22,271 bases of DNA from a virus. This document shows, in pieces, positions 10,918 through 12,557 of the stretch. The position numbers and the translations under genes were made by a program. The notes under the pieces are model-generated. The model was given only the letters and a program-made list of their open reading frames with translations, was not told where the DNA came from and did no database searches. The stretch lies in the IMG/VR virus record IMGVR_UViG_3300030118_002997, positions 1 to 22,271 of that record. The stretch is one strand, 5' to 3'. Positions within the stretch are counted from its first letter, which is position 1; every line of letters begins with the position of its first letter.

Positions 10918-11084
10918 TTTCCTTGTCCTCTATATCGCATTTGTTTTTTTGATCTTCCTTGTCTTTTTGATTTATTCATGGTTTTTATTTTTGATCTGCT
11001 TGTTATTCTTCCTATTGAAGTGCCTTTATGCTTTTTTTCGTACTGAACTGTTTTGCCAAATATATTACCTTTTTTCTTTGACAT
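10914..11084 (-). CDS. Small very basic protein (56 aa), missed by length cut-offs
   Basis: Open from ATG 11084 to a TGA at 10914-10916, it encodes 56 residues starting MSKKKGNIFGKTVQYEKKHK and ending KKQMRYRGQGK. Lys, Arg and Gln dominate. The KGNIFGKTVxYE...KGTSIG and YRGQGK pieces look like a recurrent tiny phage protein (memory only). It overlaps the upstream HTH gene by 20 bases and the downstream Cys-rich gene as ATGA. Its basic charge suggests DNA or RNA contact. Confidence 0.62.
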   Translation of the reverse strand: MSKKKGNIFGKTVQYEKKHKGTSIGRITSRSKIKTMNKSKRQGRSKKQMRYRGQGK

Positions 11085-11391
11085 CTTTAGCTTCTATAAT
11101 CAATGGCAATGGCTCATTGTAATTAGTTTGCTCTATCTTATCTTTTTGATCTAAATGTTGTTTTCCTAGCCATATCATCATTGGAACTGATCCACCTAAA
11201 GCTTTTTCAAACTGTGCTTTTCTTAAACTTATTTTGCCCAGCTCTCGTCCCTTTTTTATATAGTGGACATAACTCCTCTGTAATGTCTTTGTAGATACAC
11301 CTACAAACTCTGCAATCTCTTGATATGTACAATGCAATTGTGCTAATTTCTTTATAGTTTCTACATCTACTCTTTTAATTGGTCTCGCCAT
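11065..11391 (-). CDS. HTH protein, probable terminase small subunit
   Basis: This 108-residue protein has an N-terminal helix-turn-helix (about residues 8-42, LAQLHCTYQEIAEFVGVSTK). It is followed by helices with EKALGGSVPMMIWLGKQHLD, the block seen in small phage proteins annotated as HTH or small terminase. A small subunit binds the packaging site on DNA and recruits the large subunit. Several small genes separate it from the large subunit, which is common in these phages. The ATG at 11391 has an AAGGA Shine-Dalgarno. A general transcription regulator remains possible. Confidence 0.65.
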   Translation of the reverse strand: MARPIKRVDVETIKKLAQLHCTYQEIAEFVGVSTKTLQRSYVHYIKKGRELGKISLRKAQFEKALGGSVPMMIWLGKQHLDQKDKIEQTNYNEPLPLIIEAKDVKEKR

Positions 11392-11429: not shown

Positions 11430-11500
11430 TGGAGCGTGAGGGTTGGAATCGCACCACCTTACCTATTGAGGGTATCAATAGACCTTTCTAAAGCTCACGC
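11430..11500 (-). tRNA. Degenerate tRNA-Gly-like element
   Basis: The minus strand can fold as a 71-nt tRNA. It has a 7-bp acceptor stem GCGTGAG/CTCACGC followed by TCCA (U73 plus encoded CCA), a 5-bp anticodon stem TATTG/CAATA with a 7-nt loop ATACCCT giving anticodon ACC (Gly), and a 5-nt variable loop. A T-arm GGTGG-TGCGATT-CCAACC follows. The GCG start, U73 and C35-C36 are glycine identity features. Against full function, the D-arm region is only 13 nt, the T-loop has G instead of the second T, the T-stem carries a bulged A, and position 37 is C. It overlaps the last six bases of the Mom-like gene. It may be a decayed tRNA or a tRNA mimic. Confidence 0.6.
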
Positions 11501-12127
11501 AGGATATTCTTTTATTTTATCTCTTATAAGGTTAAATAATTTCTTATCAAATAAGTAAACATATTTGTATTTACCTTTAGTAATTTTATAATCTAAGTTA
11601 TGATTTTTATCTAATTTATTGAATCTTATTCTATCTGAGATTGTTTTGCTGTGAATTTCTTTATTATTCACAATATAAACTTTAGCTTTAGATGTTTCGC
11701 CAATATAATACCAATTCATTGCTTGATATATTTTACCTTTATGATCTTGTTCTGGATCTGCATATGACACAACTGCTTTTAGTTTAGGATAATCTTTTTT
11801 TAATTTTTTTAGGGTATAAGAAACAATTTTAGATACAGGGTTTTTATGTTGAGCTAATGCTACTCTCACTAATTCTGGACACTCAAAATTAGATACTTGT
11901 AAAAACGCACCTGATTTTGGATTTGCACCTAAACCATATATTACTGATCCCTTAAACTCTCCTTTTTCCCATACTCCAAATCTTACTAATTTAGATTTAG
12001 GCATTCGTTTTGAATAATGCCATTTATATACAGAATATTCACTTGCTTTTTGTGAACAATAATCAATATATAAATCTTTACTTAGGTAATGTTTGTCCAC
12101 AAACTTCGCATTTTTCAGATGCTTCAT
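11495..12127 (-). CDS. Mom-like DNA adenine modification protein
   Basis: This 210-residue protein shows the Mom family signature: WHYSKRMP (about 36-43), FGVWEKGEFKGSVIYGLGA (50-68), ECPELVRVALAQ (82-93) and SYADPEQDHKGKIYQAMNWY (121-140). Phage Mu Mom uses a GNAT-like fold to convert adenine into carbamoylmethyladenine, shielding DNA from restriction. The reaction here is inferred from family only. The ATG overlaps the ParB-like gene by 50 bases. The stop codon lies inside the acceptor stem of the tRNA-like element, so expression may depend on RNA processing. Residues before about 18 may be an overlap-driven extension. Confidence 0.82.
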   Translation of the reverse strand: MKHLKNAKFVDKHYLSKDLYIDYCSQKASEYSVYKWHYSKRMPKSKLVRFGVWEKGEFKGSVIYGLGANPKSGAFLQVSNFECPELVRVALAQHKNPVSKIVSYTLKKLKKDYPKLKAVVSYADPEQDHKGKIYQAMNWYYIGETSKAKVYIVNNKEIHSKTISDRIRFNKLDKNHNLDYKITKGKYKYVYLFDKKLFNLIRDKIKEYPA

Positions 12128-12557
12128 CTATATCTGATTGATCTTCTTTATCAGTAGGATTGAATGTATCTACTGACATAAATTTTTTTAATTCTTCTTC
12201 TGTAAAACCTAAAATAGGTAAACTAAAATTATCTTTTTTTAAATCTTCTATTTCTAGATTTAATAATGGAAAATCCCACTGATTATCTTCGGAAACTCTA
12301 TTATCAGCTATTCGATATGCTTTTTGTTTTGTATCATCTAATTCAGCTATTACACATGGAACTTGTTTTAGTTCTAATTTTTTTGATGCAAAATATCTTG
12401 TATGACCAGCTAGTATAGTTTTATCTGCATTAATTACAATTGGTTGTTGAAATCCAAACTCTTTAATTGAAGCCGCAACTTTGTCAACATTAAGGCTTTT
12501 TCGTGGATTATTTATGTATGGTGTCAAGGATTCTAAAGATACTAATTCAATCTTCAT
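12078..12557 (-). CDS. ParB/Srx-fold N-terminal domain protein with CxxC tail
   Basis: This 159-residue protein has the ParB-like nuclease fold. LTPYINNPRK (11-20) is followed by VAASIKEFGFQQPIVINADK (27-46), the nucleotide-site motif GHTRYFASKK (51-60) and IADNR (83-87). There is no HTH partition domain, so it is a stand-alone ParB-Srx domain such as those beside phage DNA methylases. The C-terminus ends with CEVCG (150-154), a possible half of a metal site. The gene directly precedes the Mom-like gene and overlaps it, suggesting the two act in one modification process. Confidence 0.8.
   Translation of the reverse strand: MKIELVSLESLTPYINNPRKSLNVDKVAASIKEFGFQQPIVINADKTILAGHTRYFASKKLELKQVPCVIAELDDTKQKAYRIADNRVSEDNQWDFPLLNLEIEDLKKDNFSLPILGFTEEELKKFMSVDTFNPTDKEDQSDIDEASEKCEVCGQTLPK

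Follow-up and report, generated by a model that had tools for sequence, protein, structure and literature searches.

A conserved tRNA-Gly-like RNA at the end of phage mom genes, a candidate glycine carrier for DNA modification

The product of Mu Mom is N6-carbamoylmethyladenine, a glycinamide derivative, and GNAT enzymes use loop glycines to hold the pyrophosphate of CoA. The donor for Mom has been speculated in print to be an acyl-CoA 'such as glycyl coA' (PMC7824862), which counts against a tRNA donor; in the literature we searched, mostly open-access journal papers, Mom was not linked to glycyl-tRNA or tRNA-Gly, and Mom's donor may already have been found elsewhere. Two described systems bring GNAT proteins together with glycyl-tRNA. 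The GNAT toxin TacT reads U73 and G71 of glycyl-tRNA. In Staphylococcus aureus, the GNAT-fold proteins FemX, FemA and FemB are supplied by non-proteinogenic tRNA-Gly isoacceptors that lack the D-loop GG (G18G19 being replaced) and have features expected to weaken EF-Tu binding, with glycine being supplied to non-ribosomal transferases (PMC4052509).

Here we analyse a phage-encoded RNA element that shares glycine identity and an altered D-loop with the S. aureus tRNAs, but differs from them in that it overlaps or abuts a gene for a DNA-modifying enzyme, in carrying a bulged A in its T stem, and in being known from sequence; the Staphylococcus system, for its part, makes peptidoglycan, and its genes are not fused. 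The element resembles bacterial tRNA-Gly (RF00005) in its cloverleaf, CCA, U73, G1-C72, C2-G71, G3-C70 and C35-C36, whereas it departs from tRNA rules in its D-arm, its T-loop, the bulge of its T stem and position 33. The 3′ tRNA-like structure of Tymovirus (RF00233) matches it weakly (15.7 bits, far below the gathering score) and has a similar T-loop (UGCAACU against UGCGAUU), but the element has no pseudoknotted acceptor and comes from a different type of virus, making this a resemblance only. Finally, Mu Mom (PF25680; 8bv8) belongs to the same family and fold as the Mom described here, including a serine at the catalytic position, but no such element was found in the Mu mom locus or in the whole Mu_3F6 genome, where host glycyl-tRNA or another donor would be required.

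The Mom locus and its tRNA-like element

The window, which is the entire 22,271-base stretch of viral DNA analysed, encodes on its minus strand, in this order, a ParB-like protein, Mom, the element and a terS-like protein. The open reading frame at 11495–12127 (minus strand, 210 aa) is firmly assigned by homology to the Mom family of DNA modification enzymes, with matches to PHROG 1384 (E 4e-48) and, nearly over its full length, to PF25680 (E 5.9e-43, profile positions 1–201 of 202). An AlphaFold model of the protein (pLDDT 91) has a GNAT-type fold and finds as its best match the solved S124A mutant of Mu Mom (8bv8, E 3.9e-13, 23% identity), with Ser99 aligned to the essential Ser124 of Mu. 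In the Mom alignment, the P-loop glycines that would contact CoA are missing where they would be expected, and the loop reads H-x-x-P-V-S; this favours a tRNA donor but is no proof against CoA binding. On the strength of the homology between the two proteins we assume that Mom of the pelagiphage type and Mu Mom yield an identical base. Among named sequences, the window's nearest DNA match covers only a short part of Pelagibacter phage HTVC112P, and a pelagiphage-type host appears likely.

Directly upstream of Mom, at 12078–12557 on the minus strand, lies the ParB-like (ParB_N) gene (PF02195, E 1.5e-11), whose product may act alongside Mom as another part of the modification system; ParB-like genes adjoin Mom in phiEf11, Sicarius2 and Phonegingi, and one lies near Mom in BarretLemon. 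ParB_N genes sit directly upstream of Mom in loci L136 (2026–2547), L137 (2007–2537), L138 (1975–2508) and L018 (1606–2226), and several distant Mom phages have this ParB-like neighbour whether or not they carry the element. Downstream of the element, at 11065–11391 on the minus strand, is the gene for the terS-like HTH protein (PHROG 309, E 3.8e-09). Two observations concern RNA genes in the surroundings of other Mom loci: L195 has an abiF RNA (Rfam RF03085, 43 bits) at 1887–1923, some 840 bases downstream of its element, and phiEf11-like Mom phages (L168–L194) carry a single tRNA-Trp or tRNA-Asn gene about 1.8 kb upstream of Mom, at the same place in different isolates (for example L168 1299–1370 and L171 1250–1322).

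The element itself occupies 71 nt at 11430–11500 on the minus strand, including an encoded CCA, and reads, from 11500 to 11430, GCGTGAG-CTTTAGAAAGG-TCTATTG-ATACCCT-CAATAGG-TAA-GGTGG-TGCGATT-CCA(A)CC-CTCACGC-T-CCA. All seven pairs of its acceptor stem form between the 5′ strand GCGTGAG (11494–11500) and the 3′ strand CTCACGC (11434–11440), and its first six bases, GCGTGA, double as the final codon (GCG) and the stop (TGA) of the Mom reading frame. A reduced D-arm, CTTTAGAAAGG (11483–11493), has a 3-bp stem, no linker at positions 8–9 and no GG; it is followed by an anticodon-like arm (11462–11482) with a stem of 6–7 bp and a 7-nt loop, ATACCCT (11469–11475), which places the anticodon ACC at 11473–11471. 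The T-arm (11441–11458) has 5 bp, as judged from pairing in relatives, a loop TGCGATT altered to G at position 55, and a bulged A at 11443. The discriminator U73 (11433) and the CCA (11432–11430) complete the element. A first-pass annotation of this DNA had described a perfect 7-bp acceptor stem, U73, an encoded CCA, a CC-containing anticodon, a shortened D-arm, an altered T-loop and the overlap with the Mom stop codon, and each of these is present in the sequence; we refine its description to a T stem of 5 bp interrupted by a conserved bulged A, and to an anticodon-arm stem of 6–7 bp rather than 5.

With its 3-bp D stem, missing GG, G55 and bulged A, the window element departs from the canonical tRNA core. 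ARAGORN did not call it as a tRNA, and Rfam did not match it at the gathering threshold and gave chance-level matches only at a relaxed threshold. Our covariance model R1 scored it at 93.6 bits, the window sequence being within the R1 training set. Single-sequence folding, which is weak evidence in either direction, gave this member a folding energy that is mildly unusual only (z −1.96) and preferred a wrong, rod-like fold.

Covariation and linkage to Mom

We fetched relatives through the terS-like and Mom proteins and aligned their elements with MAFFT, unfitted to any structure. Compensatory changes were found in all four stems: 97% of alignment cells were paired and 13 of 21 pairs had changed on both sides, a level that none of 500 shuffles matched, and pairing fell to 34–51% when partners were slid by one to three bases as a control. 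The acceptor stem occurs as GTGAG/CTCAC, GTAGG/CCTAC, GTGTG/CACAC and GGTAG/CTACC, and the D stem, with 91.7% of its cells paired, as CTT/AAG, CTA/TAG and CTC/GAG. Five of the six counted pairs of the anticodon-arm had changes on both sides, as had three pairs of the T-arm, in which all cells were paired and the stem varies as GGT/ACC, GGA/TCC and GGC/GCC around the same bulged A throughout. An earlier register of the T stem, which left six broken pairs, was discarded; moving the bulge by one base restored pairing to 100%. A second, independent MAFFT alignment of 21 more distant, 76-nt members, which have the full tRNA skeleton of two-base linker, 4-bp D stem and 5-bp anticodon stem, again gave 97% pairing, with 17 of 21 pairs changed on both sides. 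The element is a conserved structured RNA and a member of a large family. These compensatory changes, together with its wide conservation, rule out the alternative in the first-pass annotation that it is a decayed tRNA.

Among close Mom loci with the 3′ end on the contig, the element sits at that end in all 63, its start falling anywhere from 2 bases short of the Mom end to 5 bases past it; two further close loci without it are truncated contigs. A further 160 Mom loci were fetched as relatives of the Enterococcus phage phiEf11 and Arthrobacter phage Sicarius2 loci, and 162 diverse Mom loci were counted. A training-free scan that required the acceptor stem and T-arm only, and no glycine feature, placed an element near the Mom end in 71 of these 162 loci and in none of the 162 control stretches upstream of Mom. 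The covariance model R2, which represents the wider family, found it in 129 of the 162, nearly all at the Mom 3′ end, but because R2 was trained on part of the counted loci, the training-free scan is the cleaner count.

The same linkage is seen when a neighbouring gene, rather than Mom, is used as the point of entry. In 29 records sharing the terS-like gene, Mom and the element occur together in 4 and are both absent from 25. One of the four, L018, has a divergent Mom that BLAST with the window protein missed and PF25680 matches at 4e-50, and it carries the element; the element thus accompanies Mom even where Mom is of a very divergent Mu type, as in L018 and L167. These records bear directly on the proposal that the element acts as DNA, as an att copy, as a packaging site next to terS or as tRNA remains. 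Its place just upstream of the terS-like gene in the window would suit such a role, as would the frequent use of tRNA ends as att sites. However, the element does not track the terS-like gene, being absent from all 25 Mom-less records that have it, and lies away from terS in other phages; the compensatory changes moreover mark selection on RNA pairing, in an element that is strongly conserved yet negative by ARAGORN. We therefore regard a DNA-level site as extremely unlikely, and a packaging or att site beside terS was rejected on the ground that the element follows Mom.

Within a few hundred bases of Mom, the only tRNA type that ARAGORN named was tRNA-Gly; two other predictions came back as '???' (anticodon tc). 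Genes for tRNA-Gly are found at the end of Mom in Arthrobacter (Marthavirus) and Microbacterium (Appavirus) phages: in the cultured phages Sicarius2 and BarretLemon, unannotated genes of tRNA-Gly type overlap the end of Mom; in Phonegingi, an annotated tRNA-Gly lies 33 bases beyond Mom on the other strand; and the Microbacterium phages have a canonical tRNA-Gly(TCC) on the opposite strand. Deposited genomes of Arthrobacter phages contain genes of tRNA-Gly(TCC) type, left without annotation, that overlap the end of the 'acetyltransferase' (Mom) gene (L137 3143–3214; L139 3595–3665). Separately, a 9.4-kb contig labelled as a Flavobacteriaceae MAG (L157, PBVB01000001.1) has a Mom and an element of the window type; it probably comes from a phage and ended up in the MAG through binning.

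In a Mom tree, in which some placements are unsure, the element was found in 61 of 74 members of a ParB-associated clade and with two long-branched Mu-type Moms, and was absent from the Moms of Mu, Listeria and the Klebsiella type and from most Firmicutes Moms, including phiEf11. Where phages have Mom with no element beside it, R2 matched elsewhere in the genome in 3 of 34 records; these matches were rejected as relocated elements, being ordinary tRNA-Gly within or beside other phage tRNAs. That many Mom phages have no element counts against a dedicated tRNA: Mom as a family can do without it in cis, and such phages would have to rely on glycyl-tRNA from the host. The first-pass view that a tRNA-like RNA of glycine type is linked to the Mom-like gene is strongly supported.

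Family-wide features and overlap with the Mom coding end

Across the family, almost no variation is seen at G1-C72, C2-G71, G3-C70 and U73. Of 99 distinct distant members, 98 begin the acceptor stem with GCG, 97 end it with CGC and 82 encode CCA. Positions 34–36 read NCC in 93 of the 98 members with a clean 7-base anticodon loop, the anticodon being ACC in 49, TCC in 40, CCC in 4 and GCC in none. The letters of the window element and of the family thus contain the bacterial glycine identity set, which is U73, G1-C72, C2-G71, C35 and C36 (PMC9976931).

The features used in translation are treated differently. U33 is kept in only 40 of the 98 clean loops, with another base in the other 58; the D-loop GG is often lost, being missing in the window and likewise in several relatives; G55 is common in the T-loop; and the T-stem bulged A is present in 96 of 112 distinct family members. 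The frequent loss of U33, the D-loop GG and the T-loop consensus, combined with the bulged A, makes decoding by the ribosome unlikely, judging from sequence features. Two members, L117 and L167, the latter with the bulged A, pass the Rfam tRNA model (RF00005), and this closeness to tRNA points to tRNA-Gly as the ancestor. These two, together with L323 and the Microbacterium tRNA-Gly(TCC), are the few nearly canonical members, and they are what could be said for a phage tRNA-Gly that serves translation by compensating host tRNA supply. We consider such a function very unlikely, given that most members lack U33 and the T-loop consensus and carry a bulge where EF-Tu binds, that the most frequent anticodon is ACC and none reads GCC, that no other tRNA type occurs next to Mom, and that the element vanishes together with Mom in the records sharing terS. 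The conserved letters also include U73 and G71, which are recognised by GNAT toxins such as TacT, as might be expected of an RNA that acts during infection as a decoy for, or antidote to, host enzymes attacking or acetylating glycyl-tRNA or tRNA-Gly. A decoy would leave unexplained both the tight linkage to a DNA-modification gene and the loss with that gene, and we think it a shade less probable than a translational tRNA.

The position of the element relative to the Mom stop codon, by contrast with its adjacency to Mom and its glycine identity, varies between clades. In the clade of the window, the stop (TGA or TAG) lies inside the acceptor stem; in L088-, L092- and L093-type phages, 3–5 nt separate the end of Mom homology from the element; and L018 has its stop inside the D-arm. 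In most distant loci, no stop interrupts the Mom frame anywhere in the element: this holds for 118 of 128 hits in one count and for 117 of 124 loci in another, where the other two frames average 43 of 124. The DNA there appears to encode a tail peptide of Mom as well as the RNA; L195, L199 and L282 are examples of such open frames. In L167, the element (2427–2502) overlaps the 3′ end of an upstream reading frame, and the start codon of a Mu-type Mom falls in its D-loop. With the stop lying before, in or after the element, removal of the stop codon by RNase P, which the first-pass annotation had put forward as coupling RNA processing to modification gene output, is not its conserved purpose. 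The overlap implies that release of the RNA should damage most Mom messages and that ribosomes reading through should unfold the RNA; this trade-off may be regulatory, and looks like a consequence of the overlap.

These arrangements also bear on the idea of a cis-acting processing element, in which tRNA-processing enzymes would cut the Mom message, remove or isolate its stop and thereby limit Mom, with no job as an amino acid carrier. Overlap or contact with the Mom coding end in nearly all members, such that cleavage would destroy the intact message, fits this idea, as do the open Mom frame and the fact that no promoter or terminator of the element's own stood out. Yet the glycine anticodon, U73 and the GCG acceptor, which a cleavage signal does not need, are the most constant letters, and the shifting stop, the L167 element at the start of Mom and the canonical tRNA-Gly on the opposite strand in Microbacterium phages also argue against it. 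We rate a purely cis-acting role as unlikely, though better placed than the other alternatives.

A probable dedicated glycyl-tRNA for Mom

The element is probably a dedicated, non-translational, glycine-accepting tRNA that feeds glycine to Mom for DNA adenine. Computation supplies the conserved structure, the glycine identity set, the loss of translation features and the co-occurrence with Mom; from these we infer expression, processing, charging and the transfer of glycine to DNA. The recurrence of the pairing across many phages suggests that Mom takes glycine from its own tRNA. Based on the T-stem bulge and the linkage to Mom, we predict that EF-Tu binds the element weakly and that a non-ribosomal transferase uses it.

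According to this proposal of a dedicated tRNA, the element would be co-transcribed with Mom, trimmed out of the Mom message and charged with glycine by the host glycyl-tRNA synthetase. The GNAT-fold Mom would then take the activated glycine from the charged element for adenine in phage DNA. Chemically, the N6 amine could accept the glycyl group as an amide, after which the free glycyl amine would attack C6, and an intramolecular rearrangement would yield N6-carbamoylmethyladenine. A dedicated tRNA would spare translation from competition for glycyl-tRNA, and phages without the element would use host glycyl-tRNA. More broadly, and with somewhat less confidence, we favour an aminoacyl-tRNA-dependent modification of DNA bases, in which glycyl-tRNA is provided by the phage at the mom coding end or, for Mu and other phages without the element, by the host.

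If this is correct, it would answer the question of the donor for the glycine-derived group that Mom places on adenine and would extend aminoacyl-tRNA chemistry to DNA. The element would provide a genomic marker for glycine-hypermodified phage DNA, and it would represent a widespread class of tRNA genes hidden in coding regions and mostly missed by tRNA finders.
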